Below, one piece after another: positions 17,075 through 46,179 of a stretch of 64,000 nucleotides of DNA. The stretch is from the NCBI RefSeq assembly GCF_000745015.1, contig NZ_JQNA01000001.1, forward strand, positions 1,364,001 through 1,428,000, read 5' to 3'. This DNA is from Burkholderia sp. 9120 (GTDB taxonomy: Bacteria; Pseudomonadota; Gammaproteobacteria; Burkholderiales; Burkholderiaceae). A program made the translations under genes and the position numbers. How positions within the stretch are numbered: position 1 is the stretch's first letter; each line of letters starts with the position of its first letter. Under the pieces are notes generated by a model. That model saw nothing but the letters and a program-made list of their open reading frames with translations. It had not been told where the DNA came from and did not search any database.

Positions 17075-18304
17075 TCAGTGGTTCGAGTCCTGGGAAGCCT
17101 CATTCCGGAGGGGAAAGCGGATATCAAAGGTCGTGCCGAGCCCTTGGCGGGTCTCAAAGCGAATCCTGCCGTCGAGTACCCGGCAAAGCTCCTTGACGAT
17201 CGCCAGTCCGAGGCCCACGCCGGGTATATCGTCGCCCGCGGCCCGTTCGAATTCGTCGAATACGCGGACCCGGTCCGCGGGCGCAATGCCTACCCCTGTA
17301 TCGGCAACGCGCAGATACCAGCTGCTTTCGCCGTAGCCGCCCATAGCCAGCTCGATTTCGCCGGTTTTCGTGTACTTGGTCGCGTTTGACAGCAGGTTCA
17401 GCGCCACCTGCTTCACCTTGATGCGGTTCGACAGCACCGTTGCCACGTCCGCTTCGAAGCGGGTAGACAGGCGTAACCCCTTCGCCTCGATAGCGGGTCG
17501 GCAGGACGTGACCAGCTCATCAAAGAGTTCACGCAGGTCGAACGGCTCGACTGCGAGCGGGGTGCTGTCGCCGAGTACCACCGAATATTCGACCATGTCG
17601 TCCACCAGTTGCTTCATGTCCGCGGCCTGCCGGGTGGCTAGCGCGAGTCCGGCTTCCGCCTTCGACGGCGCACGCGAAATCAATTGAAGCGCAATGGAGA
17701 ATGCATTCAGAAAATTGCGCAGATCGTGCACCACACTGCGGGTAATCTGCATGCGCGATTCGTACAGTTCGCTCACGAGCCGCTGCTTCAGCGTCAGTTC
17801 GTGGTTTGCCCGCTCCAGACTACCGGTGTATTCATCAATTTTCCGGTCGCGCTCGGTGACCGCTTCCCGGATGGACGTGACGGTGACGATGCCAAGCGCT
17901 TCATCGATCAGCCGCCGGGCGCGCCCTTCGTGGCGCCTCGTGAATGCGCTGTTCGATTCCGCGAACATCTCAGCCGCGTCAGCCAGCACCTGTCGGAACA
18001 GGTCCAGTTCGTGGACCAGTTCATCGATGCGATAGCCCTGTTGCCAGCGGACCTTTCCATGTGTGCGGGCGTCGCGTTCGATTGCCGGCTCCGCCTGTTC
18101 GAGGTCCTGCGCGTCAAGCGCGGTACAGATCCCGTCCAGGATTTCCGGCAGATGATCGGCGAGCTGGGCGTACGTTAGCTTGTCGGCCTCGACAAGGCCT
18201 GCATCGCCGAACACCGCTTTCATCCATTGTTCCATCAGGGTGGTCCGTTCCCGACGCAGAAACGCAGCAAAATTGCGAAGCGGCCCTGCTTGCGTGTCAG
18301 TCAT
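17075..18304 (-). CDS. Soluble sensor histidine kinase with RsbRD-like N-terminal domain
   Basis: 409 residues from the ATG at 18304; no membrane segments. Residues 5-150 resemble the RsbT co-antagonist (RsbRD) N-terminal helical domain (LRRERTTLMEQWMKAVF, LTYAQLADHLPEILDGICTAL). The phosphoacceptor is His193 in VVHDLRNFL. The ATPase domain has the N box NLLSNATKYT, G1 DTGVGIAP and G2 GVGLGLAIVKEL. It is divergent from a single-domain receiver (18579-18950), its probable partner. The same kinase type recurs at 32685 and 40180. Confidence 0.85.
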   Translation of the reverse strand: MTDTQAGPLRNFAAFLRRERTTLMEQWMKAVFGDAGLVEADKLTYAQLADHLPEILDGICTALDAQDLEQAEPAIERDARTHGKVRWQQGYRIDELVHELDLFRQVLADAAEMFAESNSAFTRRHEGRARRLIDEALGIVTVTSIREAVTERDRKIDEYTGSLERANHELTLKQRLVSELYESRMQITRSVVHDLRNFLNAFSIALQLISRAPSKAEAGLALATRQAADMKQLVDDMVEYSVVLGDSTPLAVEPFDLRELFDELVTSCRPAIEAKGLRLSTRFEADVATVLSNRIKVKQVALNLLSNATKYTKTGEIELAMGGYGESSWYLRVADTGVGIAPADRVRVFDEFERAAGDDIPGVGLGLAIVKELCRVLDGRIRFETRQGLGTTFDIRFPLRNEASQDSNH

Positions 18305-18578
18305 ATTTCGTGTTCGCGGAAAAGTATTGGGATGTAACGGAGCACGTGGTGCCACAGCATGTGTCAGGCATTTCCTGAGATGGGTACAAGGCAATGGCCA
18401 CCGACTTTGACGCGGCAAGGGGAAGACCCCAGTCCCTCCCCTCGCCAGAGAGCGCCCCGATGTGGTAGGCCGTGTCGTTGCGTTTCATTATCCTTCAATC
18501 GAGTTGCTGGAACATACCTTGCTGGCAAGGGCACGCGTCAGACAGAAGCGAAAACGCATAACGCCGGGCCAAAGTCTC

Positions 18579-20322: not shown

Positions 20323-20402
20323 GATGTCCTCCATGAGATCTTTCGATGCGTTCGACAATAGGCGCCCGTTCAAAGATTTCAAGCCCAAAAAAATTTCAAT
20401 AT

Positions 20403-20436
20403 TCCCCCTTGAAGTTTTCGCTGGAAGGCCTATTTT
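20403..20436 (+). promoter_or_regulatory. Sigma-32 (RpoH)-type heat-shock promoter
   Basis: TTCCCCCTTGAA (20402-20413) fits the RpoH -35 consensus very well, followed after 15 bases by CCTATTTT (20429-20436), close to CCCCATTT. It lies about 130 bases upstream of the first hsp20 start. Confidence 0.7.
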
Positions 20437-20564
20437 GGATTTCGCTCAAGCAGACGCCGTGTTTTGGCGCGCTGCGTGTTTCGATTTGTCTGCCAGCAGC
20501 TGGCAGGCGGACTGGAGCGCATAGGCCAGTTCGCCTCCATGCAGCATTCACGGAGGATACGACC

Positions 20565-21017
20565 ATGAGTGATCTCTATTCCGGAACCGACCTGTTTAGC
20601 GAGTTCGACCGTCTGCAACGCCAGATGGCCAGCCTGTTCGGCGGCCTTCCATCCAGCATCCGTTCCGGCAATGCCGGCGCATTCCCGCAGATCAATATCG
20701 GTGCGACCGACGACTCGATCGAGATCGTCGCGTTCGCGCCGGGCATCGACGCCGCCGCGATCGACCTGTCGATCGACAAGGGGCTGCTGACGATTGCCGG
20801 CGAGCGCAAGCCGGCACTACCACACGCCAGTGGCGACAGTCGCGACGACGTTCGCACCTACGCGCAGGAGCGCTTCAGCGGCGCATTCCGGCGCGTGATC
20901 GAACTGCCGCAGAATGCGGACCCCGACAAGGTGCAGGCGCGCTACACGAACGGCTGCCTGTCGATTACCGTGGGCAAGCGCGAAGCGTCGAAGCCGCGGG
21001 CCATCACCGTCCAGTAA
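20565..21017 (+). CDS. Small heat-shock protein Hsp20 (1 of 3)
   Basis: 150 residues from the ATG at 20565 (GGAGG at 20552-20556). Alpha-crystallin domain about 40-145 with the closing motif YTNGCLSITVG (normally A-x-x-x-NGVL). It binds unfolding proteins as an oligomeric ATP-independent chaperone. First gene behind the RpoH-type promoter and 24 bases before the next hsp20, so the two are co-transcribed. Confidence 0.9.
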   Translation: MSDLYSGTDLFSEFDRLQRQMASLFGGLPSSIRSGNAGAFPQINIGATDDSIEIVAFAPGIDAAAIDLSIDKGLLTIAGERKPALPHASGDSRDDVRTYAQERFSGAFRRVIELPQNADPDKVQARYTNGCLSITVGKREASKPRAITVQ

Positions 21018-21041
21018 CGCCAGTTATTCAAGGAGCAAGCC

Positions 21042-21449
21042 ATGAACGACAGGACACAGGTTGCTGAACGCGACCGGCAAACGGCAGCACGACGCGAGGG
21101 GGAGCAGCAGGCGCGGCGGATGACACTTACCCCCGCGGTTGATGTATTCGAGGACAGTCAGGGCATCACACTGTGGGCGGACCTGCCAGGCGTCACGAAA
21201 GAGAGGCTCGAGGTGAGAGTGCACGACGGCAATCTCTATATCGAGGCCGAAGCGATCGTACCGACACCTGCCAGTCTGCGGCTGCAGCACGCCGAGATCC
21301 GCGAACCGCGATTCGCGCGTGCGTTCTCGCTGAGCCCGGACTTCGACACATCGAAGATCGACGCGAACCTGCGGGACGGCGTGTTGAGACTGACCATTCC
21401 GCGCCGCGACGAAGCAAGGCCGCGACGCATCGAGGTGCAGACAGGGTAA
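21042..21449 (+). CDS. Small heat-shock protein Hsp20 (2 of 3)
   Basis: 135 residues. Hydrophilic Arg/Gln-rich N-terminus (about 30 residues), then the alpha-crystallin domain: TPAVDVFEDSQGITLWADLPG, FARAFSLSPDFD, LRDGVLRLTIPRR. AAGGAG precedes the start. It follows copy 1 in an operon and is followed by a strong hairpin. The copies differ enough that paired hetero-oligomers are plausible. Confidence 0.9.
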   Translation: MNDRTQVAERDRQTAARREGEQQARRMTLTPAVDVFEDSQGITLWADLPGVTKERLEVRVHDGNLYIEAEAIVPTPASLRLQHAEIREPRFARAFSLSPDFDTSKIDANLRDGVLRLTIPRRDEARPRRIEVQTG

Positions 21450-21484
21450 GCCCGGACGATCAGCAGCGATGACGGGCAAGAATT

Positions 21485-21508
21485 GATGGCGGCCCTGAGG
21501 CCGCCATC
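21485..21508. terminator. Strong hairpin after hsp20 copy 2
   Basis: Perfect ten-base stem GATGGCGGCC / GGCCGCCATC with loop CTGA. No T-tract follows, so it may be a transcript-stabilising or partial terminator. Confidence 0.5.
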
Positions 21509-21654
21509 ACCTGCGCCGTGGAAGCGCGAATGCAGAACTTAATGGAAAAATGGTGGCTCCTCGCGAGGCGCAGCCCCGCCACGCAAGCAGAAACTTTGCA
21601 CTGTGGGCCCAGATGGATATCCAGTTTTCCTGTCAAACCATCGAGGTGAATACG

Positions 21655-22218
21655 ATGAATAACGACCTGAAAAAGTGGAACCCCTTCAAATTCATTCGCG
21701 GGTCAGTAGGCAAGTCCGGCACGGACGGCCCTGACACTCAGACAGCCAGCGAGCAGGGGCGCGCCACATGGCCTGACATTCAGCGGCTTTTCTCGCGTGA
21801 TTCCCTGCGTGCGATGGAGGATTTCTTTCTCGATCCGTTTGCCGTGCGCGGCACGCTCGAACGATGGTTCGGCGACTTCAGCTCATCGCGTTTCCAGCCG
21901 CGCATCGATGTGGTCGACGAAGGGAAGATACTGCGCGTGACCGTGGAGCTGCCGGGCATGGAAAGGGACGATCTGACGATCAGCGTTGAGGACGGAGCGC
22001 TGGTGCTGCGCGGCGAGAAAAGACAGGACGTGCACAGTGAGGAGGACGGCTGCTATCGTCTGGAGCGCGCTTACGGAGCCTTCACGCGCACGATACCAAT
22101 GCCTGAAAACGCCGATGCTGACCATACCCTCGCAAAGTTTGACAAGGGTGTGCTCACCTTGACCGTACCGAAGCATGAACCCTTGCGATCCGCCAGCCGC
22201 ACGATCGATATTGGCTAG
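21655..22218 (+). CDS. Small heat-shock protein Hsp20 (3 of 3)
   Basis: 187 residues from the ATG at 21655. Long N-terminal extension (about 80 residues, WNPFKFIRGSVG and RDSLRAMEDFFLDPFAVRG), then the alpha-crystallin domain (PRIDVVDEGKILRVTVELPG, YGAFTRTIPMPENAD, FDKGVLTLTVPK). No RpoH-type promoter was seen directly upstream, so it may depend on read-through past the hairpin or its own promoter. Confidence 0.9.
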   Translation: MNNDLKKWNPFKFIRGSVGKSGTDGPDTQTASEQGRATWPDIQRLFSRDSLRAMEDFFLDPFAVRGTLERWFGDFSSSRFQPRIDVVDEGKILRVTVELPGMERDDLTISVEDGALVLRGEKRQDVHSEEDGCYRLERAYGAFTRTIPMPENADADHTLAKFDKGVLTLTVPKHEPLRSASRTIDIG

Positions 22219-23570: not shown

Positions 23571-23765
23571 GCAGTCCTCGCACATGACGCAGTCTAGGAG
23601 CCCATGATCTTCATACACGCCAGCGCTTACGCCTCGGCGTCGGGAAACCATGGGTACGTTACAAAACCGATTGCGGTTAAAGCAATTCAAGCCGGCGAAG
23701 GTCGTCGCGTGCGTCAACTTGAACGCTCCGCACTGCACTTTCGCCAGCCGCACTTTTCGCCTCCT

Positions 23766-24140
23766 ATGCGCAAAAAGCTTCTGCTTGCGGACGACGACGT
23801 CAATGCAATGGCAGCAGTCGCCGTGTTTTTCGAGTCTCACAATTTTGAGGTGCGCACCGCCACTGACGGCATCACCGCGCTCCGGTGGTTCTCAACCTGG
23901 CAGCCCGACGCGGCCATGCTCGATATCGACATGCCGGGCGCCAGTGGATATGAGGTGGCGCGGCATGTGAGGACCACCGAGCGTTCAGGCAAACGGACAC
24001 TACTCGTTGCGGTCACGGGAGAAATGCCGCCACGCGAGGTCGCCGCCAGATGCTATCAGGCTGGCTTCGATCTCCACGTTGCGAAGCCAGCCGACGTGAA
24101 GGCACTCGCTGAATTCGTCATTCTGGGAATCGTGGGCTGA
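23766..24140 (+). CDS. Single-domain response regulator
   Basis: 124 residues from the ATG at 23766. Receiver with ADDD acidic pocket, phosphoacceptor Asp in AAMLDIDMPGASGYE, Thr in AVTGEMP and Lys in VAKPADV. No output domain and no kinase beside it. Less like the other receivers in the window than they are like each other. Confidence 0.85.
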   Translation: MRKKLLLADDDVNAMAAVAVFFESHNFEVRTATDGITALRWFSTWQPDAAMLDIDMPGASGYEVARHVRTTERSGKRTLLVAVTGEMPPREVAARCYQAGFDLHVAKPADVKALAEFVILGIVG

Positions 24141-30328: not shown

Positions 30329-30601
30329 TCAAACTTCGGTCTGTTCGGCCATTTCGAGCGCGTCGTCAACTTCGATACCGAGATATCGGACGGTACTCTC
30401 CAGCTTGGAATGGCCAAGTAGCAGCTGGACGGCTCGCAGGTTTTTCGTGCGTCGGTAAATCAGTGACGCTTTAGTGCGACGCATCGTGTGTGTCCCGTAG
30501 GCTGTGTCGTCAAGACCGATCGATTTGATCCAGCGATGGACTATTCGTGCGTACTGTCGGGTCGAAAGATGCGGCGAACCGCGAGGGGCCATACCCGTCA
30601 T
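30329..30601 (-). pseudogene. C-terminal fragment of a tyrosine recombinase
   Basis: About 90 residues hold the catalytic end of a phage-type integrase: GTHTMRRTKASLIYRRTKN (Arg), LLLGHSKLESTVRYLG (His and the Tyr nucleophile). The N-terminal half is missing; the frame is joined directly to the 3' end of the kinase fragment next door, whose stop overlaps its first codon. The IS21 element lies just beyond its 3' end. Non-functional. Confidence 0.8.
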
Positions 30602-31146
30602 GCCTTCAAAGCAAATCGCGGTAGGGTAATGGTGAAGACGCAGCCGGCGCCTGGCACATCGCGGACGCTGAGAATGCCGGCATTTGCTTCAACGTAGCGC
30701 CTCGCGATTGAAAGACCAAGTCCCAGTCCTGTTCTATCCTCGCCATTCTGCGTAAACGGCACAAACATTCTTTCTGCATCACCGGGCGGCAGACCACCGC
30801 AATGATCCTTCACATCGATCAGGATATGATCAGACAGCGCGTATACATCCAACGCCACTTCGGTGCGATGCTGCGTAAATTTGAAGGCGTTTTGGAGCAG
30901 GTTTCCCAACGCCGAATAGAGCTGGTCACGGTCGCCACTGATAGCAAGCCGCGTGTCCACAGCGGAAACTGTTAGCACGCAACCGCGAATCTGGGCAGCA
31001 AGTTCAGCGGCATACTTCACGTCAGCTATGAAATCCGCGACGGAGAACAGTCCGGACTGTGCTGAAACACCGGTTGCCGTACGAACCTCCTCAAGGGAGT
31101 GCCTGATTAAATCGCGCAATCCATCCAGGCTGCGCTCCAGAACTGA
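30598..31146 (-). pseudogene. 3' fragment of a soluble histidine kinase
   Basis: About 180 residues, nearly the same as the C-terminal half of the kinase at 32685 (shared LRDLI-SLEEVRTA, FSVADFIA-VKYAA, GNLLQNAFKFT, DVKDHCGGLP, GLGLGLSIARRYVE). The histidine box and the N-terminal domain are missing. Homology stops at about 31145, where the truncated IS5 transposase starts head-to-head, so one deletion removed the 5' ends of both. Confidence 0.85.
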
Positions 31147-31963
31147 GCTCGGTGATCATCATCACCGAAATACGCAGCTGCAGGTTCACTTCATGCAGCA
31201 ATGGTTTGGGCTTTCGGACCCGGCGATGGAAGAGGCGCTATATGACGTGCCGCTGTACCGTGAGTTTGCGGGGCTGGACGAAGGTATGACGCGTTTGCCG
31301 GACGAGAGCACGATTCTGCGGTTCCGCCACCTTCTCGAAACGCACGGACTGGCCGCGCAGATGCTCGCACTGGTCAATGAGATCCTGAGTGAAAAGGGCT
31401 TGATGTTGAAGGCAGGGTCGGCGGTCGACGCGACCTTGATTAGCGCACCCAGTTCGACAAAGAACGGCTCTGGCAAACGGGACCCGGAGATGCACCAGAC
31501 GAAGAAAGGGAATCAATGGTACTTCGGGATGAAAGCGCACATCGGCGTGGACGCAGAGTCAGGTCTGGTCCACACCGTCATTGGTACTGCGGCCAACGTG
31601 CACGACATCAATGCGGCCGGAGCGTTGTTGCACGGCCAGGAAAAAGATGTGTACGCTGACGCCGGATATCAGGGTATTGAAAAGCGCTGTCAGGCGAACC
31701 CGGTACGCTGGCATGTCGCGATGCGACCGGGCAAGCGTCGACAACTGGACCTGACCAGTCGTCTGGACGTGATATACAACCAGATTGAGCGCCTGAAGGC
31801 TGGCGTGCGCGCCAAGGTTGAACATCCGTTTCGAGTGCTCAAGCAGCAGTTTGGCTATACGAAGACCCGGTACCGAGGATTGGTGAAGAACACCGCGCAG
31901 ATCACGACACTGTTTGCGCTGGGCAACCTCTGGATGGCGCGCAAGGCTTTAAGCAAAGCGTGA
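31147..31963 (+). pseudogene. IS5-family transposase lacking its N-terminus
   Basis: The reading frame from VHFMQQWFGLSDPAMEEALYD to ARKALSKA covers about 260 residues of an IS5-type DDE transposase (AVDATLIS, GMKAHIGVDAESG, YADAGYQG, VEHPFRVLKQQFG). The first 60-70 residues and the left terminal repeat are gone. The frame is open further upstream only through kinase-derived sequence. Confidence 0.85.
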
Positions 31964-32114
31964 AACGTCCTGCGAATCAGGCCGTGAGTCTCGGCAAACG
32001 ACGGTCATCATGCTTCAAAAGCCGGACGACCAACCTGCTGGCAGACTCTGCGGCCGATATGCCCAACGTGAAAAAAGATCGGTGCTCTGAAAACGTGTTG
32101 TGCAGACCTTCCCT
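31964..32114 (+). mobile_element. Right end of the truncated IS5 element
   Basis: GTTGTGCAGACCTTCCC ends at 32114 and looks like the outer IS5 terminal repeat (complement GGGAAGGTCTGCACAAC). The following CTAAG fits the YTAR target of IS5 elements; the IS3 orf starts right there. Confidence 0.5.
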
Positions 32115-32336
32115 AAGTACTTCGGTTTAGCGCGAACATACTCTTTCTGCAGATCGCCACCCTTCTCAAATTCCGCACACCAAGCCTTAAGAGAATTCTT
32201 CGTCGGGTAACCCAACTGGCGGATTGTCGCCTTGATGCGCTTGCCAAGCGTCAGGTACAGCTCGACCGCCCGAACGCGGTCTTCGTATGAATACATGGAC
32301 TACCTCCAAAGTAGTCCATGATTTTGTCCGCATCCC
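32115..32336 (-). pseudogene. IS3-family orfA remnant
   Basis: From the ATG at 32296 the protein reads MYSYEDRVRAVELYLTLGKR, then IKATIRQLGYPTKNSLKAWC and KEYVRAKPKY, a typical IS3/IS150 orfA helix-turn-helix, and is then cut by the IS5 end. The start codon lies inside a perfect ten-base hairpin CATGGACTAC-(7)-GTAGTCCATG (32294-32320), probably the regulatory and end structure of the element. orfB is absent. Confidence 0.75.
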
Positions 32337-32337
32337 C

Positions 32338-32366
32338 GGTGGGTCAGGATTCCGTGCAAATCAACA
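32338..32366. repeat. Isolated IS21-type terminal repeat, copy 1
   Basis: 29 bases identical to 38206-38234, in the same orientation. The inner part of that IS21 element is absent here; the IS3 remnant abuts it. Confidence 0.8.
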
Positions 32367-32549
32367 ATCTACCCTGAAGTCCCTGCTTTATCTCAATTGC
32401 AGAGCTGTTGTTGGGGTGCTTCGCGATGGCGAGATTGGTACGCGACTCGTGCCAGTAGCCTGTACGGTATCGTACCGACTTTTATTAAGTTTCTGATGAT
32501 CATCTTTCGGCGCGCGGCTGATACCCGCGTGTGTGATTCCGATGGCCGC

Positions 32550-32575
32550 GGCCGCAGCCGCTGCGGCCTTTTTTT
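32550..32575 (+). terminator. Orphan intrinsic terminator
   Basis: GGCCGCAG-CCG-CTGCGGCC followed by seven T. Very strong, yet no coding gene precedes it on this strand for 580 bases, and the kinase gene follows; it may end a small RNA or shield the kinase from upstream transcripts. Confidence 0.8.
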
Positions 32576-32684
32576 CGTGCCGACGATAAACAAATAACAG
32601 GCATGATGAAGGCGATCTCTTCTGCTTGGTCCGTTAGCGAAATTTCTTGCTGCGGCGACGGAATCACTACACCGGGGCTACATC

Positions 32685-33827
32685 ATGATGCACGTGTTTC
32701 TTGCGAACAACCGCAATGAACTCATAGAGAGATGTCGGGCGAAGGTGGCGCAGAGGCCCGCGCGCGAGGCGACCGCGCAGCAGCTTCAGAATGGTGTGCC
32801 GATGTTCCTGGACCAGCTCATCAGGACTCTCCAGGTCGAACAGACGTCGCAGCCCATCGACAGCCACAGGATTTCGGGTCCGTCGGGCGGCGGAGCGTCT
32901 CCATCCGAGATCGGCAAGTCAGCAGCAGAGCATGGACGGGAGCTGCTTAAGCTAGGGTTCTCGGTTGATCAGGTTGTTCACGATTACGGCGACCTGTGCC
33001 AGGCAATTACAGACCTCGCGTATGAGCGCGACGCTCCATTTCTGATAGACGAGTTTCGAACGCTCAACCGCTGTCTGGACAATGCCATCGCCGATGCGGT
33101 AACAGAATTCAGCTATCAGCGCGATTTCGCCGTCGCCAACCGACAGACCGTTGAAACGCATGAACGGATGGGGGCTTTCACCCACGAGCTGCGTAATTTT
33201 TTGCAGACCGCAACGCTCGCTTTTGTCGCAGCAAAAGCCGGAAATCTGAGCCTGTCTGGAGCCACTGGTTCTGTTCTGGAGCGCAGCCTGGACGGCTTAC
33301 GAGACTTGATCGCCCGCTCTCTCGATGAGGTACGTACGGCAGCGGGGATTTCCGAGCAATCCAGAACGTTTTCCGTTGCCGACTTCATCGCTGAAGTGAA
33401 ATATGCAGCTGACCTTGCGGCCCAGGTTCGGGGATGCGTATTGAGAGTTTCCGATGTGGACACGCGGCTTGCCATCGTTGGTGACCGCGATCAGCTTTAT
33501 TCGGCGGTGGGTAACCTGCTGCAAAACGCCTTCAAATTCACGCGCCACCGCACCGAAGTGACGTTGGACGCCTACGCGTTATCGGATCGCATCCTGATTG
33601 ATGTAAAGGATCATTGCGGCGGTCTCCCCGCTGGCGATGCAGAAAGAATGTTCCGGCCTTTCACACAGAACGGTACGGACAAAACCGGACTGGGTCTGGG
33701 CCTGTCAATCGCCAGGCGCTGCGTAGAGGGAAACAACGGCACTCTCAGTGTGCGCGATGTACCCGGCACCGGCTGCATATTCACCGTTTCACTGCCCAGA
33801 TATGCCGTCCCCGCTGAGACAGTATGA
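32685..33827 (+). CDS. Soluble sensor histidine kinase (paralog A)
   Basis: 380 residues, no membrane segment. The N-terminal 150 residues are a helical RsbRD-like sensory domain (LGFSVDQVVHDYGDLCQAITDLAYERDAP). Phosphoacceptor His167 in FTHELRNFL, N box GNLLQNAFKFT, G1 DVKDHCGGLP (GG in place of the usual DxGxG), G2 TGLGLGLSIARR. It is about 75% alike by eye to the kinase at 40180 and to the fragment at 30598. The receiver at 34356 and the KaiC/receiver unit lie downstream on the opposite strand. Confidence 0.85.
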   Translation: MMHVFLANNRNELIERCRAKVAQRPAREATAQQLQNGVPMFLDQLIRTLQVEQTSQPIDSHRISGPSGGGASPSEIGKSAAEHGRELLKLGFSVDQVVHDYGDLCQAITDLAYERDAPFLIDEFRTLNRCLDNAIADAVTEFSYQRDFAVANRQTVETHERMGAFTHELRNFLQTATLAFVAAKAGNLSLSGATGSVLERSLDGLRDLIARSLDEVRTAAGISEQSRTFSVADFIAEVKYAADLAAQVRGCVLRVSDVDTRLAIVGDRDQLYSAVGNLLQNAFKFTRHRTEVTLDAYALSDRILIDVKDHCGGLPAGDAERMFRPFTQNGTDKTGLGLGLSIARRCVEGNNGTLSVRDVPGTGCIFTVSLPRYAVPAETV

Positions 33828-34298
33828 CAGCGTCGCCGCGACGGTCAGGTTTGAACCGGACAACCGACTCTCCGGTTATTCGTTCGAGCGACGGAAGTGG
33901 GTTGAACTGAGCCGCCCGTCGTACGGTTCAGTGCGGTCATGAAGAGCCGTTCGTCGGATGAAAGCGACAGGACGAAACCGGTCTTGTAGCTGTCGGTTGA
34001 CCCACTGGCGTGGTTGGTTTGAAGTGAGCTGTGCGACATTGACCCAAGTCCGGCATGCCTTCTGACGTCGACGCCATTTGCCCGGACGAGCGGAAAGATA
34101 TAAACGGAAGAAGAGCTTTTCCACGTACGCACGTGCTCAGGCGCGTCTTTGATCACAGGGGTGGCATCGCGGGATCAGTTTAATGCAGTGAACCATGTGC
34201 AGGGTCGAACAGACGCGCCTTTTTGGAGAGTTGCAACTGCAAATGTCGCGACTATCGTGAACTAGTCTCCTCTCCATATCGCCTGCTGATGTGGAATT
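33828..34298. other. Intergenic region without a supported gene
   Basis: About 470 bases after the kinase. A minus-strand frame (33845-34156) has no motif. The strong terminator at 34299 on the plus strand suggests that something is transcribed here. Confidence 0.35.
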
Positions 34299-34325
34299 GC
34301 CCGCCCTCAAAGCGGGCATTTTTTT
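34299..34325 (+). terminator. Intrinsic terminator upstream of the receiver tail
   Basis: GCCCGC (34299-34304), loop CCTCAAA, GCGGGC (34312-34317), then ATTTTTTT. It ends a plus-strand transcript, either the distant kinase mRNA or a small RNA. Confidence 0.75.
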
Positions 34326-34355
34326 ACAGCGTTCCGTTTGCGGCGTCGGGGGGCG

Positions 34356-34712
34356 TTATGTGACCGTGCACAGATTACTAACGGTTGTAAGAAAAAGTGA
34401 CACAGGTATAGGCTTCTTCAAGCAAAGATTCCATGCGGGCTGGAGAATGTCTGGTGGCGGCGTGGCTGACTGGCCGAGAATCGGGATATGCGCGAAGTCG
34501 GGTTGAGCTCGAATCTCGCGGCTTAAGGCCAGTCCGTCCATCAATGGCATGATCCAGTCGGTAACAATGAGGTCGGGCACATGGTGTTTCAGACATTCGA
34601 GCGCCTCGATACCGTTGCTCGCGCAAGTCACCCTGTATCCTTCGTTGACCAAGATCAGGGACCACGCGGCGAGAAGTTGGGGCTCGTCATCCACAAGCAA
34701 AATCGAATACAT
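34356..34712 (-). CDS. Single-domain response regulator (paralog of 18579)
   Basis: 118 residues from the ATG at 34712. ILLVDDEPQLLAAWSLIL, phosphoacceptor Asp in IVTDWIMPLMDG, Ser in GQSATPPPD, Lys in LKKPIPV and the FLTTVSNLC ending match the receiver at 18579 almost position by position. It lies between the kinase and the KaiC/receiver pair. No output domain. Confidence 0.9.
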   Translation of the reverse strand: MYSILLVDDEPQLLAAWSLILVNEGYRVTCASNGIEALECLKHHVPDLIVTDWIMPLMDGLALSREIRAQPDFAHIPILGQSATPPPDILQPAWNLCLKKPIPVSLFLTTVSNLCTVT

Positions 34713-34923
34713 CTGCGGCCACCGATTGGTCAGTTTTTTCGCTGTCGCCTGACTGAGCAAGTAACATTCCAAAGGGAGGAGTAACTGCCGCTGCAAGGTG
34801 TTTTTCTTTGCTGCCACGCATCGTGGGGTGGGATCGATGCACCCAATAGCGTCGGGTCAGGATTTCTCCGAACTCCGTTGCCCCATCGAAGCGAATAACT
34901 AACGCTATCTTGGGCGCTCGGTC

Positions 34924-35274
34924 TCAAGGCAGCATTTTCTCTATGATCGGAAGCAGCGTGTCGAGCGAGAGCGGCTTGCGGCAATATGCAATCGCCGGAT
35001 TGGGCTGTTTGGGTATGTCGACGGCTGCGCTGCACAGAATGACGGGGATTGACCGTAATTCCGGGTCCTCAAAGAGGGCGGCGCACAGCTCCGGACCAGA
35101 CATCACGGGCATCATGCAGTCACTGAGGATGAGGTCTGGCCTGGCTTTGCGGATCAGCTCAAGCGCGACCGCTCCGTTGGGTGCTGTCACGGCGGCATAT
35201 CCGACCTGTTCGAGCAGCAGGCTCCAGATAGTCAGAAGGTCGAACTCGTCATCTACGACCATGATTGTTTTCAT
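34924..35274 (-). CDS. Single-domain response regulator coupled to the KaiC-like gene
   Basis: 116 residues. MKTIMVVDDEFDLL, Asp in LILSDCMMPVMSGPE, Ser in LCSAAVD, Lys in YCRKPLS. Starts six bases after the stop of the KaiC-like gene, so it is its translational partner. In other bacteria receivers beside KaiC-like ATPases are thought to link them to phosphorelays. Confidence 0.9.
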   Translation of the reverse strand: MKTIMVVDDEFDLLTIWSLLLEQVGYAAVTAPNGAVALELIRKARPDLILSDCMMPVMSGPELCAALFEDPELRSIPVILCSAAVDIPKQPNPAIAYCRKPLSLDTLLPIIEKMLP

Positions 35275-35280
35275 GGCGCG

Positions 35281-36756
35281 TCAGCTGTCGAAACGGCCGA
35301 TGATTCCTGTCGCGGCCCCGCGGCCACCGAGCAAACTCGCCGCACCCGGAAAAGCGTCGACAACATCGAGTCCCTTCTCGGCAATGACGAGCTCCCGAAG
35401 CGAAGAATCGTGCGCGCTTTCGCGCTGTTTGACCACGGAGATCATTCGATGCAGACCAGTGTCGGTTTCCGCATAGCGCAGCAAAATGAGATTTTCAGTC
35501 ATGGCCGAGAGACGCATTCTGCGCATGACGGCGGGATCGGAATTGAACGGCACTTCTTCTGTGAGAAGCGTTGTCACTCCTGCGGCGCGTAACTGATGAG
35601 TCAATGCGTTGAGGAACAGACCAAACCGGCCCGTGCGCATTGCTGAATCACGAAACCCGTCGATACCGTCAAGCACAAGTCGCGTCGCGCCGGTCTGCTT
35701 CACCGTAGCGAGAGCGGTGGCTGCCAGTTCGTCTATTGCCAGTTCAATGGCCGGTTGCCACTGGACGGTCAGCCGCCCGTCGTCGCACGCCGCCCGCAAC
35801 GGAATTGAAACGGATTCAGCCTTGCCGATGAGCCGTTGCGGCGACTCGTAAAAGCCGAGATAGACGGACTTTTCGCCGCGTTGCGCACCGGCCGATAGAA
35901 ACTGCAGCCCAAGCAGCGTCTTGCCGATTCCCGATGCGCCCATCAGCGTGGTCGTGGAGCCCTTTATAAAACCTCCGCCGAGCAACTCATCAAGACGTGG
36001 AATACCCGATCCGAGGCGCGCCTTGAGGTCGGCCGGTCCAGGCTGCTCGGCACATCGTGCTTCCAGCCGTGGAAACATGACATGGCCGCTGTCCGTTATA
36101 CGGAAGAAATGCTTGCCCAGCATGTGATCGCGAGCACGCATCTTGTGGACTTCAATTTCGCGTGTGCGGCGCATGCCGTCGCTGTAACGGTTGAGCTCAA
36201 TCAGACCGTCGACGAGCGTATGTTCGGGATGCGGCTCGTTACCCGACAAAGGAGCCAGCAGCAACGTTGTACAGTTCATGGCAGCAACCAGCGCGTTCAA
36301 CTCATGGATGAACTTGGACAGCGAGAGGTCCGTTTCACTGAACTCGCGTGCGCTGCGAAAGCCATCGACGATGAGCAGACCCGGGCGGTACTGGTGGAGG
36401 CTCAAGGCAACCTGCTTGAGGAAGCCATCAAGTCCGCCCTGCATGAGCGCGTGATAGCCCGAGACGAAAAACATTTTCTCCGCGACCACTTTTTCGTCAA
36501 AGAAGCTGAGTCGGCTCAGATGTCCGAGGAGCTTGTCGTGCGATTCAGCGATCAAGGTCATGTACAGCACCTTCTCGCCCTGGAGGACACGATGGAAGCC
36601 GATCTGGCTCGATAGAATCGTCTTGCCCGCGCCAGCCATGCCTTCTATCAGGTACAAAGCGCCGCCGACCAGACCGCCGCCGAGAATGGTATCGAGGCCC
36701 GGCACACCTGTTTCGACATTTGAACGGTCCGACGCTGGGGATGTGTGAGTTGTCAT
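35281..36756 (-). CDS. KaiC-like double RecA-domain ATPase
   Basis: 491 residues from the ATG at 36756 (a TTG at 36780 also fits). Two KaiC/RadA-type domains: first GVPGLDTILGGGLVGG with Walker A GMAGAGKT (39-46) and Walker B LLIVDGF; second SGIPRLDELLGGGFIKGS with Walker A GASGIGKT (near 280) and LVLDGIDGF. The domain 1 loop has AESHDKL and domain 2 YESPQRL, where cyanobacterial KaiC has an EE pair in each; the Ser/Thr autophosphorylation sites of CII are not obvious. No kaiA or kaiB is in the window, so a clock is not indicated; it is more likely a phosphorelay-controlled ATPase switch. Confidence 0.85.
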   Translation of the reverse strand: MTTHTSPASDRSNVETGVPGLDTILGGGLVGGALYLIEGMAGAGKTILSSQIGFHRVLQGEKVLYMTLIAESHDKLLGHLSRLSFFDEKVVAEKMFFVSGYHALMQGGLDGFLKQVALSLHQYRPGLLIVDGFRSAREFSETDLSLSKFIHELNALVAAMNCTTLLLAPLSGNEPHPEHTLVDGLIELNRYSDGMRRTREIEVHKMRARDHMLGKHFFRITDSGHVMFPRLEARCAEQPGPADLKARLGSGIPRLDELLGGGFIKGSTTTLMGASGIGKTLLGLQFLSAGAQRGEKSVYLGFYESPQRLIGKAESVSIPLRAACDDGRLTVQWQPAIELAIDELAATALATVKQTGATRLVLDGIDGFRDSAMRTGRFGLFLNALTHQLRAAGVTTLLTEEVPFNSDPAVMRRMRLSAMTENLILLRYAETDTGLHRMISVVKQRESAHDSSLRELVIAEKGLDVVDAFPGAASLLGGRGAATGIIGRFDS

Positions 36757-36780
36757 TTTTGAATCGTCTGCGAAGTTCAA

Positions 36781-37148
36781 ACTGGGCTCGCCGCGAGATC
36801 AGTAAAATCGTCTAACCGCACGCAAACGGTGTACCTGGCTCGCTGCGTCGACAGAAAAGCGCGCTCAAAAGCGCACGCCAGAATTTTACCTTTTTTGAAT
36901 TCGCTTGCGATCGTCGGACCCTGTGCAGGGGTAATCGCAAATCCATAGCTCAACGGTATGTTGTCCGCGCATAGGCGGAGCACAACGCTCGGTTTACATT
37001 ACGACGCTGATATTCACCCGGACCGACTGAAAGACAGGGCAAAGTTCGTTGAGATCACGACAGCGAGGACAAAATCGCAACACGTCGTCTGGACATTTCA
37101 TGCTCCGGAGAACAACAAGCAATCCAACTCGCTATATTTCGCGACGGG
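36781..37148. other. Intergenic region between the KaiC-like gene and the IS21 remnant
   Basis: Should hold the promoter of the KaiC-like operon. No gene is supported. Confidence 0.4.
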
Positions 37149-38132
37149 CATCTCCCGGTCGCCGCCGGGGCGCTTCAGCAGCACGCCCTGCAGCTTGCGG
37201 AAGCCAGCTGGAAACTCGGCGAATGGCGCGCCATTGCGAAGCGCTCCCGGTTTGCGCTGCAGGACTGCCAGGTAGTGACGCCAGTCGTAAATGGTTTCGC
37301 CGTGGTCATGGCTGCGGTTGATACAGCGCTCGTGCTCGGCAATCACCTGGCCTTCGGCGACGAACACGAGTCTGGCTGCGTAGACGCGCAGACTGATGGG
37401 CCGGTTCTCCCAGCCGGAGGCGACGTTGCAGAACTCGGCGTCAAACAGGTAGTGACTTACCATCGCGCTGAACCGCGCGTTGACCTCGCGCACCTTGCCG
37501 GGACGCACCCGGTCTACGGCGGTCTTCATGTTGTCGTAGATGCCGCGGCGTGGAATGCCGCCCCAGGCGACGAACGCGTGATGATGCGCGTCGAACAGCA
37601 TCTCGTGGGTCTGCAGCAGGTAGGCCCGCAGGAAGAAGGCGCGGCTGTGGCTGAGCTTGAGTTGCGCGACCTGCAGCTTGGTGCGCTCGCCGTTGATGAC
37701 GGCCCAGTCCTCGCTCCAGTCGAACTGGAACGCTTCGCCAGCGGCAAACCGGAGGGGAACGAATGTCCCGCGCCCGGTCGTCCTTGCCTGCTCGTGCTGC
37801 TCCTGTCGCCAACGCCGGGCAAACGCCGCGACACGGTCATAGGAGCCAGTAAAGCCCAGCACGCAGAGGTCCGCGTGAATCTGCTTGAGGGTTCTTCGCT
37901 GTTTGCGGGGCCGGGTCGCCTCGGTCTTCAGCCAGCCAGCAAGCTTCGCAGCAAACCCGTCGAGCTTGCTGGGGCTGTGGCGTTCGGGATAGGCGGGCAG
38001 TACGGTGCCGGCCCGTATGTAACGTCTGACCGTGTTTCTGGACACGCCCAGCCGTTTGGCAATCTCGCGCAACGACACATGATCGCGAAAGTGCCAGCGT
38101 CGGATGATGCTCAATATAGCCACGTCGATCAC
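37149..38132 (-). pseudogene. Degraded IS21-family istA
   Basis: The N-terminal two thirds of IstA are recognisable: HVSLREIAKRLGVSRNTVRR (helix-turn-helix), GEAFQFDWSEDWAVI and RGIYDNMKTAVDRV (catalytic core). After NVASGWE the frame jumps in-frame to NRPISLRVYAARLVFVAEG, so a segment that normally holds the last catalytic Glu is deleted. The C-terminus is lost after GGDREM (near 37149) and istB is absent. Frame closes at 37098 in foreign sequence. Confidence 0.8.
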
Positions 38133-41316: not shown

Positions 41317-41639
41317 GGTGCGGCACTCCGTTTTAGGCTGCGCATGGCTGACCTCCCTCGGCCTCAACCAGCGGTTCGCAAGCGCGGCCCGGTCTTTGCT
41401 CACGATCACAGATACATTCAATGTACTCCTTTTTCCGCATCGGACAGGATGCCATCAAGGCCACCCAAAATCGGCATTTATTGCGCGACGAGATTTGCGT
41501 GCGGAGCTTACCCGCAGTTCTTGCTCACTTCGGTGACTCTAGCCGATGGTGAAAAATCCTCTCTTGACAGGTCGCCAAGCTGCCATACAAGAAAATGACT
41601 ACGCCCCAGCGCTACAGCCGATGGACTTCTCGACGTACG

Positions 41640-42884: not shown

Positions 42885-43379
42885 AATGAAGCGCACGGGG
42901 TTGCGGCTCCATAAAAGATTATGGTTGCCCGTCGTCGCCATTGGGTTCATTTGACTTGCCTCTCTGCGACGGAAAGTACATTAACGGGCACGATTTAGAT
43001 AACATTAATTCATCATATAAATTCGGTTTTTCTCAAGCAACGTCGTTTCACGCATGAAACGTTTGCATTCGGGTAAACCTGAGGACGTAGGATGCCCCGG
43101 ACCAACAAGAAATGGCGAGGTGAGCGGCGGATCGCCCTAACTACAGCGTGGGACGCGGCATTTTATATTGCCATCCTGCCGCATCAGCAGGTAGCCCGCT
43201 GCGAACCGGCCCGCAATCTGGACTTCATGGACGTAGCTGCACCGGTGCCCCAACAGATTGGACTTAAGCGACGAGCGTCGCCGTACGCCATACACGGCAC
43301 TTTCTTACTTTTCAAGAAGGGTCATAGTTGTCAATGATTGGCTCGGGTCGGTCAAACGTCTCAAATTGTTTAGGGTTGT

Positions 43380-43441
43380 AGGACGCCTGCCCTGGTCCGT
43401 ACGCACGTGAACTCGCCCAGACGCCAGCGGGCAGGCGTCCT
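43380..43441. repeat. Perfect 13-base inverted repeat with 36-base loop
   Basis: AGGACGCCTGCCC (43380-43392) and GGGCAGGCGTCCT (43429-43441). It lies beyond the 3' end of the HUH transposase and could be its terminal structure; no T-tract. Confidence 0.55.
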
Positions 43442-43722
43442 GCAAGCCCCAAGGGAGGAAACCGCGGAGTGTTCCGACGTGGTCTGAACATTTCACCGCT
43501 ATGGCGATTTGTTTGGGCGCACTGAGGACATGGTGGATATAAAGGCGGGTAAATCTGAGGCTGGACAGGCACGATCGCGGCAGCGGCACAGCGGCGGGCT
43601 GCCATCGCGCCGACTCGGCCAGCGCCAGACTGCCTGTCTGGAAAGATAGGCGCAGGCGTCTGCTATCGGCTCTCGTTGCCGAAGAGCCGACAGTCGGATT
43701 GTGCATCCTGACACGATGGTGT

Positions 43723-44910
43723 TCATGCGTGGGCTCGCTCGACAGGCGGTGCCCGGATAGGTCTGCTGCGTTGGAGTATGTCGATGATGATCATTGGCGA
43801 ACCGCAGTGCCGGCAAACGAAGGTTGGCGGCACTGCTACGGTGGATACGACGTTGGCACTGAGGCCGATACTGGCAGGCACTACGTCCAGCAACTCGCGT
43901 ATCGTCGCGAGATTCTCGCGCCGCGATGGGTTCGCGATCAGACCGTAGTGGCGGATGCGGTGGAAGCCGCCAGGCAGCACGTGCAACAGGAACCGGCGCA
44001 CGAACTCATCCGTTTCGAGTGTCATGGTCTTGTTGCGTGTGCGTCCGTCCACGCGGTAGTCCTTCCAGCGGAAGGTCACGCCGTGTTCGTCGAGCGCGAC
44101 CAGGCGTTGGTTAGAGATCGCGACCCGATGCGTGTAACGCGACAGATAGGCGAGCACCGCCTTGGGTCCCGCAAACGGGCGTTTGGCATAGACCACCCAC
44201 TCGCATGCGCGCATTGGCGCAAGCCACCCGGCAAAGGCTGCCATATCGTTGAGCCCGGCGTATTCGCCGAAGAAGCGCAACTGGCCGCGGCGATAGATCG
44301 CTTCCAGCTCTTCGAGGAATCGTCGCCGGAACAGGCGCGAGAGCACGCGCACGGGAAGGAAGAAACCTGGCTTGCACGCTACCCACCGGCTTCGATCCGG
44401 CGACAGCCCACCACCGGGAACGATGCCATGCACATGGGGATGATGCGTGAGCGCCGAGCCCCAGGTATGCAGCACGAGAGTGGCACCGATCTGTGCCCCG
44501 AGATGCTTCGGATCGGCGGCGATGGTGCGCAATGTCTCGGCCGCGATATCGAACAGCAGCCCGTAGATGACAGCCTTGTTGTAGTACGCAATCGCGCTGA
44601 TCGCCGCCGGCAGTGTAAAGACCACGTGGTAGTACTCGACGGGCAGAAGATCGGCCTCACGCGCTTCGAGCCACCGGCGCGCCGCGGTAGCCTGGCACCT
44701 TGGGCAATGTCTATTGCGGCAGGAGTTGTAAGCGACCTCGATCTGTTCGCAACCGGAACAGCGCAACACGTGTCCACCCAGCGCCGCGCTGCGGCACTGT
44801 TCGATCGCTGACATCACCTTCAGTTGCCCGAGGTTCAGATTGGCGGATTGACGCCACACTGGACCAAGAGAGCGAAAGACGTCGGCCACCTCCAGCGCGC
44901 AATGCGCCAC
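43723..44910 (-). CDS. IS91-family HUH transposase
   Basis: 395 residues. N-terminal zinc finger (CSGCEQ, NRHCPRCQ), the metal-binding HUH motif in LTHHPHVHGIVPGGG, and the Tyr region VLAYLSRYTHRVAIS. C-terminal Cys pair (FVCRHCG). Moves by rolling-circle single-strand transfer. Nine bases separate it from the tyrosine recombinase upstream, so both belong to one element, as in some IS91 relatives. Confidence 0.9.
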   Translation of the reverse strand: MAHCALEVADVFRSLGPVWRQSANLNLGQLKVMSAIEQCRSAALGGHVLRCSGCEQIEVAYNSCRNRHCPRCQATAARRWLEAREADLLPVEYYHVVFTLPAAISAIAYYNKAVIYGLLFDIAAETLRTIAADPKHLGAQIGATLVLHTWGSALTHHPHVHGIVPGGGLSPDRSRWVACKPGFFLPVRVLSRLFRRRFLEELEAIYRRGQLRFFGEYAGLNDMAAFAGWLAPMRACEWVVYAKRPFAGPKAVLAYLSRYTHRVAISNQRLVALDEHGVTFRWKDYRVDGRTRNKTMTLETDEFVRRFLLHVLPGGFHRIRHYGLIANPSRRENLATIRELLDVVPASIGLSANVVSTVAVPPTFVCRHCGSPMIIIDILQRSRPIRAPPVERAHA

Positions 44911-44919
44911 GATGGTGAC

Positions 44920-45795
44920 CTACGCAGGATCCAGACCATCAAGGGGGCTGACCACCTCACGCAGAATATCGGTGGCGACCTGGGCATAAAGCGCTGTGGT
45001 CTCCAGCTTCTTGTGCCCGAGCATGACCTGGATCACGCGGATATCGACCTTCTGTTCCAGTAGATGGGTGGCAAAGCTATGGCGCAAGGTGTGCATGGAC
45101 ACGCGCTTGTCGATTCCCGCGGCCTCGGCGGCCGCATGGACCACCCGGTTGAGTTGGCGGGTGCTGAGCGATTCAATCGGGTTAAGCCCAGGAAAGAGCC
45201 AGCCACCGTCAAGCATCCGGCCCTGGGCCCGGGCCACTCGCCACCAGACCCGCAGACGCTCGAGCAGCACCGGGGACAGCATCGCGTAGCGGTCCTTCTG
45301 CCCTTTACCCTGCTCAACGCGCAGCGTCATGCGCTGGCTGTCGATGTCTCCGACCTTCAGGGCCACCACCTCGCTGGCCCGTAGTCCTGTGCCGTAGGCT
45401 ACTGCGAGCGCTGTCTGATGCTTGAGGTTACTGGCCGCCGCGATCAGTCGACCCACTTCGTCGCGGCTGAGTATGACGGGCAAGGTACGCGGAAGATAAA
45501 CCGGACGCATCTTCGCCATCAACTCCCCTTGACCGAGCGTGGTGGTGAAGAAGAACTTCAATCCGGTGATCGCCGCGTTCAGGGAAATCGGCGACACACC
45601 GCGGTCAACCAGATGCAGCTGATAGCGCCGCAAGTCCTCGACGGTGGCGGTGTCAGGCGAACGTCCGAGAAAGACAGTGAACTCTCGCACCACACGAAGA
45701 TAGTTGGCTTGCGTGGTTGGCGCGAGGCGGCGCATGCGCATGTCGTCCATCATGCGCTGGCGTAGCGGACTGATGTCCTGGCTGTGGGTAGTCAT
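44920..45795 (-). CDS. Tyrosine recombinase of the IS91-like element
   Basis: 291 residues from the ATG at 45795. N-terminal SAM-like core-binding domain (LAPTTQANYLRVVREFTVFL), catalytic residues Arg in YGTGLRASEVVAL, His-x-x-Arg in MHTLRHSFATHL, His in MLGHKKLETT and Tyr in TTALYAQV. Complete. Its role in IS91-type elements is not settled; it may resolve or target single-strand intermediates. Confidence 0.9.
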   Translation of the reverse strand: MTTHSQDISPLRQRMMDDMRMRRLAPTTQANYLRVVREFTVFLGRSPDTATVEDLRRYQLHLVDRGVSPISLNAAITGLKFFFTTTLGQGELMAKMRPVYLPRTLPVILSRDEVGRLIAAASNLKHQTALAVAYGTGLRASEVVALKVGDIDSQRMTLRVEQGKGQKDRYAMLSPVLLERLRVWWRVARAQGRMLDGGWLFPGLNPIESLSTRQLNRVVHAAAEAAGIDKRVSMHTLRHSFATHLLEQKVDIRVIQVMLGHKKLETTALYAQVATDILREVVSPLDGLDPA

Positions 45796-45841
45796 GGCTC
45801 GGCTCCTGTCGAGTGACGAGGCGGATCGCCTCATCCCTCAA

Positions 45842-45868
45842 CATAGGAAACCGGGCGGGTTTCCTATG
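45842..45868. repeat. Hairpin at the 5' edge of the IS91-like element
   Basis: CATAGGAAACC (45842-45852) and GGTTTCCTATG (45858-45868), perfect 11-base stem. Position and form fit an ori- or ter-type end of an HUH element. Confidence 0.55.
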
Positions 45869-46179
45869 AAGAACCACCACGTTGAAACGGAGTGCATACC
45901 GCGCGAGCGGTTTAGTCCTGTGGCCGCCTACTGCCTCATGCAAAAGGCATGCGTAACCTGAACCGCGCAAGTCTGTGATCGGCAGTACGCGACCCTGAGC
46001 GGTCAGTCGAGGTTCGGCAGTCCCGTGTTCCGATTTTCGAAGAGAAGCGGCCACTCGATGATCCTTCCGACGAAGATGCAAATGGCAGCGCGAGGCTGGG
46101 AAGCAACAACCGCTGAGCTAGGCGTTCTGGTTCGTCTGGGTGAACTCCCCGACATTGAATGACGGATGCGGCCGCTCCT
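45869..46179. other. Region without a supported gene
   Basis: Contains short frames that look like decayed coding tails but no motif I can name. Confidence 0.35.

Follow-up and report, generated by a model that had tools for sequence, protein, structure and literature searches.

Two-domain ATPases of the KaiC family include the circadian KaiC of cyanobacteria (PDB 8zn5, 1tf7), and three further descriptions of such proteins come close to the system treated here. De Luca and colleagues (2011; PMC3164672) describe kaiC genes that are frequently followed by a receiver gene and then mostly encode one or no phosphosite (the 'third kaiC context'). The same source describes a second context, in which KaiC is accompanied by a specific histidine kinase (Rta_04330/Rta_04340). 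KaiC-REC fusions have been noted in Methanosarcinaceae (PMC5847659). Here we analysed a KaiC-like gene and the receiver gene next to it in a 64,000-nucleotide stretch of Burkholderia sp. 9120 (positions 1,364,001 to 1,428,000 of NZ_JQNA01000001.1; hereafter the window). The stretch is part of the 1.88-Mb contig C1 in a genome of two contigs and 8.46 Mb. The ATPase and its receiver, RR1, are a conserved, real pair, which we read as a candidate signalling module in which the receiver would regulate the ATPase. The pair and a second receiver, RR2, are laid out as follows, in window positions:

35281-36756, minus strand: KaiC-like double-RecA ATPase, 491 aa; PF06745 in two stretches; ATG at 36756, stop codon ending at 35281
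34924-35274, minus strand: RR1, single-domain receiver (PF00072), 116 aa, directly downstream of the KaiC gene
34356-34712, minus strand: RR2, second single-domain receiver (PF00072), 118 aa, 37% identical to RR1

The ATPase scored 207 bits against PF06745 (cut-off 26.6) over two stretches, which places it in the KaiC superfamily, and six bases (35275-35280) separate its gene from RR1. RR2 lies a further 211 bases away and probably starts at the ATG at 34712, where the receiver begins; the longer open reading frame start at 34817 is probably not real. Pfam found PF00072 alone in each of RR1 and RR2 and no output domain. On all these points, namely a double-RecA ATPase with a receiver after six bases, a second receiver beside it and single-domain receivers throughout, the preliminary description of the locus proved right. 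Among named genomes, those with the nearest KaiC were Paraburkholderia; the pair is also present in P. xenovorans LB400 (L012) and P. phosphatilytica 7QSK02 (L022). A copy of RR2 with 87% identity occupies the same place in G031, the nearest relative, and second receivers also occur in part of the group with 39% identity; RR2 is probably accessory, for example a phosphate sink or a competing receiver.

The window locus has the features of the third context: a single-domain receiver gene directly after kaiC, no kaiB beside it and at most one clock phosphosite, the SA type being listed in the supplementary legend of PMC3164672. In that paper the third context is diverse and 'frequently' receiver-linked, whereas the proteins treated here form one side of a supported branch, have a receiver beside every one examined, and carry their own motifs (AES, VDG and GFYE, versus GEP, VDSF and FE in distant homologues). 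The second context, as described there, shares with the window a double-domain KaiC without KaiB and a link to two-component signalling, but has a kinase where the window KaiC has a receiver. Homologues fitting it are about 34% or less identical to the window KaiC (tblastn), and it is from gene context that we infer these distant kinase-linked proteins to be the second-context group. The archaeal KaiC-REC proteins likewise join a KaiC-family ATPase to a receiver, but PMC5847659 describes one fused chain in archaea, whereas the window pair consists of separate genes in a bacterium. A candidate for a natural KaiC-REC fusion in our own sample (G658) was rejected, the long frame being, as read from its coordinates, another reading frame that overlaps KaiC. 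By sequence, the window KaiC resembles cyanobacterial KaiC in its two RecA-type domains and Walker motifs; unlike it, it lacks the second phosphosite and the first glutamates of the two EE pairs, scores far below the clock cut-offs and comes from a genome without a KaiA or KaiB match.

KaiC homologues were picked by similarity to the window KaiC from 23 loci of named genomes (20 used) and from overlapping genome samples, in which 22 of 98 relatives (E 1e-60), 28 of 399 genomes of the order (1e-55) and 16 of 398 genomes of the phylum (1e-50) contributed. The various genome surveys of this analysis scored 3, 10 or up to 33 candidates per genome, and their absences hold at such depth. Short, weak matches from Planctomycetes (L029-L031) were left out, as was G410:C34, which came without a locus. 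A co-directional receiver-only gene lay directly downstream in 55 of the 79 distinct homologues, including L074, which was counted by hand as a longer overlapping frame had been listed first. None of the remaining 24, more distant KaiCs had one: 17 were followed by a histidine kinase, 6 by nothing recognised within 1.4-1.5 kb, and 1 had too little flank. In a maximum-likelihood tree of 76 KaiC rows, the receiver-bearing proteins (53 versus 23 rows) formed one side of one branch with a support of 100/96. A broken KaiC (L071), a contig-cut one (L026) and one with a short flank (L108) were left out of the tree, the first two being kept in the receiver count. L071, from genome G008, is a KaiC of the receiver-linked group that is split over two reading frames, with its receiver retained.

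In a later set of 36 distinct loci of the genus that had not been used before, a receiver stood next to KaiC in all 36; one of them (L203) failed the automatic rule owing to an overlapping frame, and its receiver was confirmed on separate inspection. The receiver was also present in 74 of 74 distinct long loci of the receiver-linked group, a count in which 14 of 85 input stretches had been chosen after a receiver was already seen and which does not include L079 and L082 of the distant group. The coupling of ATPase and receiver that had been proposed from the window alone is thus borne out, as is the co-occurrence of this receiver with this type of KaiC. Within the genus, 66 of 144 genomes gave KaiC hits at E 1e-80 or below. 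The adjacency of KaiC and receiver persists across several families of the phylum, with different genes around the pair; the two genes are separated by a few bases in the close group and by up to about 90 in other intact loci. In most close loci the pair supplies the sole two-component gene or genes within 8 kb, and the pair often stands alone: judged by kinase-core position, the 3.5 kb downstream are free of a co-directional kinase in 37 of 38 close loci.

The receiver-linked group was defined by the tree and the motifs rather than by an identity cut. The boundary in identity is thin, receiver-linked proteins reaching down to 34.6% (L116) and others up to 34.4% (L087) by tblastn, with one distant-group member (G325) at up to 36% in a genome-wide search, and bit scores overlap, the receiver-linked L106 (201) falling under several distant KaiCs (up to 229). 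The distances among KaiC proteins and among their RR1 partners were correlated, with rho values of 0.72 for 53 loci and 0.79 for 29 close loci (0 of 300 and 0 of 1000 permutations as high, respectively).

Both Walker A lysines and both Walker B aspartates are present in the window KaiC and invariant in the receiver-linked and distant groups, and K45, E71, D131, K279, E304 and D363 are invariant in the receiver-linked proteins that cover these positions. RR1 carries Asp8, Asp9, Asp52, Ser82 and Lys100, and both it and RR2 hold the full receiver set of two acidic residues, phosphoacceptor aspartate, serine or threonine, and lysine. Because the phosphoacceptor aspartate, the lysine and the serine or threonine are kept in 55 of 55 RR1s (the first acidic residue being D in 48 and E in 7), these receivers look able to accept phosphate. 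The AlphaFold2 model of RR1 had a mean pLDDT of 94.7 (22 sequences; block 81-90 at 85), and the helix between strands 4 and 5, the usual alpha4, is absent from this predicted structure. The usual output surface of receivers involves the alpha4 region, and given the predicted loss that of RR1 would differ from usual receivers. The spacing from the phosphoacceptor aspartate to the lysine was 47-50 residues in all 55 RR1s, 52 in L009_c39, L120, L123 and the receiver at 41595 of the window, and 54 in that at 23604. A short spacing, which accompanies the predicted loss of alpha4, is not exclusive to RR1: it ranged from 45 to 52 in the 27 of 37 other receiver hits that were measurable, some of which are second receivers of the pair.

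We propose, with a probability of about 0.5, that KaiC and RR1 would constitute a two-protein signalling module in which RR1 is the regulatory subunit and the ATPase the output of the pathway. As its family suggests, the ATPase with its two RecA domains would form a hexamer, and RR1 would be bound to it as a dedicated regulatory subunit. A histidine kinase encoded elsewhere would phosphorylate RR1 in trans, and phosphorylated RR1 would alter the nucleotide cycle or the assembly of the ATPase. The physical contact, the direction of control and the phosphorylation are what we infer; the tight linkage, the intact receiver residues and Walker motifs, the lack of a KaiA or KaiB match and the loss of the dual phosphosite support the proposal, as do the KaiC-REC fusions of Methanosarcinaceae. 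With the pair conserved, no output domain present and no kaiA or kaiB found in the genome, the preferred view is still that the receiver may act on the ATPase itself. The preliminary description had likewise suggested that the ATPase may be the output of a phosphorelay, and this part remains the preferred view; its wiring through the kinase next door, which turned up in 3 of the 35 tested carriers, is not supported.

Several points weigh against the proposed module. The loss of the first EE glutamate in both halves leaves it uncertain, on sequence grounds, whether the protein is active as an ATPase. The KaiC tree gave long-branch warnings for several rows, including L079 and L106, and the RR1 tree gave no single RR1 clade (3 changes needed; few columns). 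The correlation of KaiC and RR1 distances was weak in the 17 diverged loci (rho 0.22; 89 of 2000 permutations as high). Moreover, a conserved gene order can arise from co-expression without contact.

Control might also run in the reverse direction, which we consider possible but unlikely: the ATPase hexamer would bind, sequester or dephosphorylate the receiver, and the receiver would act elsewhere as a CheY-like messenger. The same linkage data fit either direction, some loci hold two receivers, and single-domain receivers generally transmit their signal through binding to a protein located elsewhere. However, no gene for another target is found with the pair at every locus, a further two-component gene within 8 kb is missing from most close loci, and the pairing fits a subunit better.

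Slightly less probable is that KaiC and RR1 are co-expressed parts of a stress regulon with no direct contact. Small heat-shock genes, related HSP20 genes among them, are found near L009, L075, L131, L230 and L231 and also 13-14 kb off in the window, but the adjacency of the pair in several families of the phylum despite changing neighbours speaks against this reading. The window region 20346-22215 contains three HSP20 (small heat-shock) genes, and a DUF2934 gene lies close by.

Neither a clock nor an hourglass is likely. KaiB and KaiA gave no match in the whole genome, both search controls being positive in Synechococcus, so that the earlier report of their absence from the locus extends to the genome; among 25 carriers of the pair, KaiB was found in 1 (G176). 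In the alignment to solved KaiC, A70 and Y303 of the window protein take the place of the first glutamate of the clock EE pair in the two halves. Position 303 corresponds to a clock residue that we take to be E318, presumably the base for autophosphorylation. All 55 receiver-linked proteins have Y, H, F or T there, followed by an invariant glutamate; the distant group shows nearly the opposite, with E in 23 of 24 at this position and K, Q or R at the next in 20 of the 24. The clock phosphosite pair, numbered S431/T432 in a legend of PMC3164672, reads S417-A418 in the window KaiC, and position 418, the counterpart of T432, is A, G or Q in 41 and S in 14 of the 55 receiver-linked proteins. Scores against the clock-KaiC models were 133 bits for TIGR02655 (cut-off 546) and 215 bits for NF006799 (cut-off 408). 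With KaiA and KaiB missing and an alanine at the second clock phosphosite, no clock is implied; a KaiC clock was rejected on the unmatched partners, the lost phosphosite pair and the low model scores. For an hourglass timer based on KaiC phosphorylation without KaiA and KaiB speak the family name and the proposal in PMC3164672 that some KaiC-kinase pairs are hourglasses. According to the same paper, cyclic timing is unlikely to be kept up by a KaiC that cannot phosphorylate two residues, and the residues at positions 418 and 303, the latter never E, together with the TIGR02655 score make such a timer very improbable here.

The last alternative concerns a histidine kinase that the preliminary description had regarded as wired to the receivers and the ATPase. 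The features in question are:

32685-33827, plus strand: histidine kinase with a weak RsbRD-like N-terminus; HATPase_c 77 bits; convergent, judged to lie outside the module
34298-34318, plus strand (that of the kinase): terminator-like hairpin with a T-run between the kinase and RR2, from a consensus scan
34215-36862, minus strand: block common to the window and G031 (RR2-RR1-KaiC), from blastn against locus L058

That this kinase phosphorylates RR1 and RR2, which would in turn control KaiC, is scarcely credible: it lies only 528 bases from the receivers in this genome, but the genes are convergent with a terminator-like site between them, 32 of the 35 tested carriers gave no match to the kinase, the DNA in common with G031 ends at 34215, two of four other copies examined have a receiver of their own directly downstream, and the gene sits among transposases with one cut copy nearby.

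In detail, kinases of the 32685 type were found in 4 of 59 genomes searched, its own included, and once, with a stop codon, among 21 further carriers of the pair. The 3 of 35 tested carriers that had it (E 1e-40) were its own genome, G014 (on another contig) and G048 (on another contig, with the stop codon), and in 1 of the 35, this genome, it lies beside the pair. The co-occurrence check thus ran against the proposed wiring, since relatives of the pair usually lack the kinase and the adjacency is seen here alone. Blastn of the window against the G031 stretch matched 34215-34737 at 84% and 34923-36862 at 94%, with no match beyond in the fetched G031 DNA, and the common block ends short of the kinase. 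The consensus scan returned 12 terminator-like sites in 32000-37200, versus a shuffled mean of 4.8.

Four other places of the kinase were examined. In G017 and at C1:496700 of its own genome a receiver of a different subfamily from RR1 and RR2 lies directly downstream, whereas the stretches fetched for G014 and G079 show no receiver there. These two receivers share 65% identity. Apart from each other, the receivers most similar to them in the set compared are those at 23604 and 41595 of the window (E 5e-20 and 5e-17, respectively, for L123), after which rank RR2 (1e-13), by a moderate margin, and RR1 (27% identity). The lone receiver at 23604-24137 is their nearest relative in the window. Mobile elements around the kinase comprise IS21-type genes, a group II intron reverse transcriptase, an IS91-type transposase with an integrase, and one further transposase, which we take to be IS5-type. 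A cut copy of the kinase at 30598-31119 adjoins a DDE transposase gene (30953-31963), and its DNA is 93% identical to that of the intact copy at C1:496700. The IS91-type element with its integrase (43367-45925) has a second copy near another copy of the kinase, at about C1:498.2-500.8 kb, which it matches with 100% identity across 2559 bases. The kinase at 32685-33827 is therefore probably a bystander that belongs to another system. Its earlier designation as an RsbRD-type histidine kinase holds for the kinase part (HATPase_c 77 bits) and not for the N-terminus, where RsbRD_N reached E 0.017 and 16.3 bits (cut-off 24.3). A kinase with a true RsbRD_N domain (49.5 bits) is encoded at 17078-18418, and an 1828-aa open reading frame at 55477-60963 appears by eye to be a fusion of protein-kinase, ATPase, GAF, PAS and histidine-kinase parts.

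If RR1 is phosphorylated in trans, the relatives suggest that neighbouring kinases including bacteriophytochromes, rather than the kinase at 32685, feed the receiver. A co-directional kinase, judged by the position of its kinase core, lay within 3.5 kb downstream in 1 of 38 close loci and in 14 of 33 loci of the group with 30-60% identity. The phytochrome gene of L009 starts 2.6 kb downstream, with its kinase core beyond the 3.5-kb limit. Where KaiC is followed by two receivers, the next kinase carries a PAS domain in L072 and shows a kinase core alone in L075; that of L074 clusters with these two. Of the 59 loci flanked by 5 kb or more on each side, 7 had a bacteriophytochrome kinase within 8 kb; among all 74 loci there were 8 (L009, L022, L073, L081, L129, L226, L227 and L228), in several orientations; the PHY domain was seen in the kinases of L009 and L081, and KaiC, receiver and phytochrome follow in a row in L081, L227 and L228. 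Only 0.2-0.3 such loci would be expected, assuming 1.4 to 2 phytochrome genes per 7-Mb genome, although the loci are related and their effective number is smaller. The other 52 of the 59 loci, that of the window included, have no phytochrome within 8 kb, and the single phytochrome gene of the Burkholderia sp. 9120 genome, at C2:1204367, is far from both pairs.

Across 58 genomes of the genus, a phytochrome was present in 11 of 21 carriers of KaiC and receiver versus 3 of 37 non-carriers (Fisher p 0.0003). Correction along an rpoB tree (57 genomes, G033 having no rpoB match) left 5.4 to 0.5 independent pairs when KaiC was taken first and 5.2 to 0 when the phytochrome was taken first, with median p values of 0.125 and 0.0625, respectively. 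After phylogenetic correction, the co-presence is suggestive only.

Beyond the context of 2011, the additions are the tight pairing, a receiver with predicted loss of alpha4, and the bacteriophytochrome kinases nearby; the full-text literature searched, outside which lie subscription papers such as a 2023 study of Pseudomonas KaiC, yielded no description of any of these three. As a wider and quite tentative generalisation, receiver-linked KaiCs may be a widespread receiver-gated ATPase switch, in which the alpha4-less receiver would be the fixed subunit and bacteriophytochromes or other kinases would be plugged in by lineage. KaiC relatives are common in bacteria that have no clock, where their job is largely unknown, and a fixed pair makes the question biochemically simple. 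The recurrent phytochrome neighbours point to red/far-red light as a candidate stimulus, and, if the generalisation is true, there would be a route from light to KaiC in non-photosynthetic bacteria without any clock.

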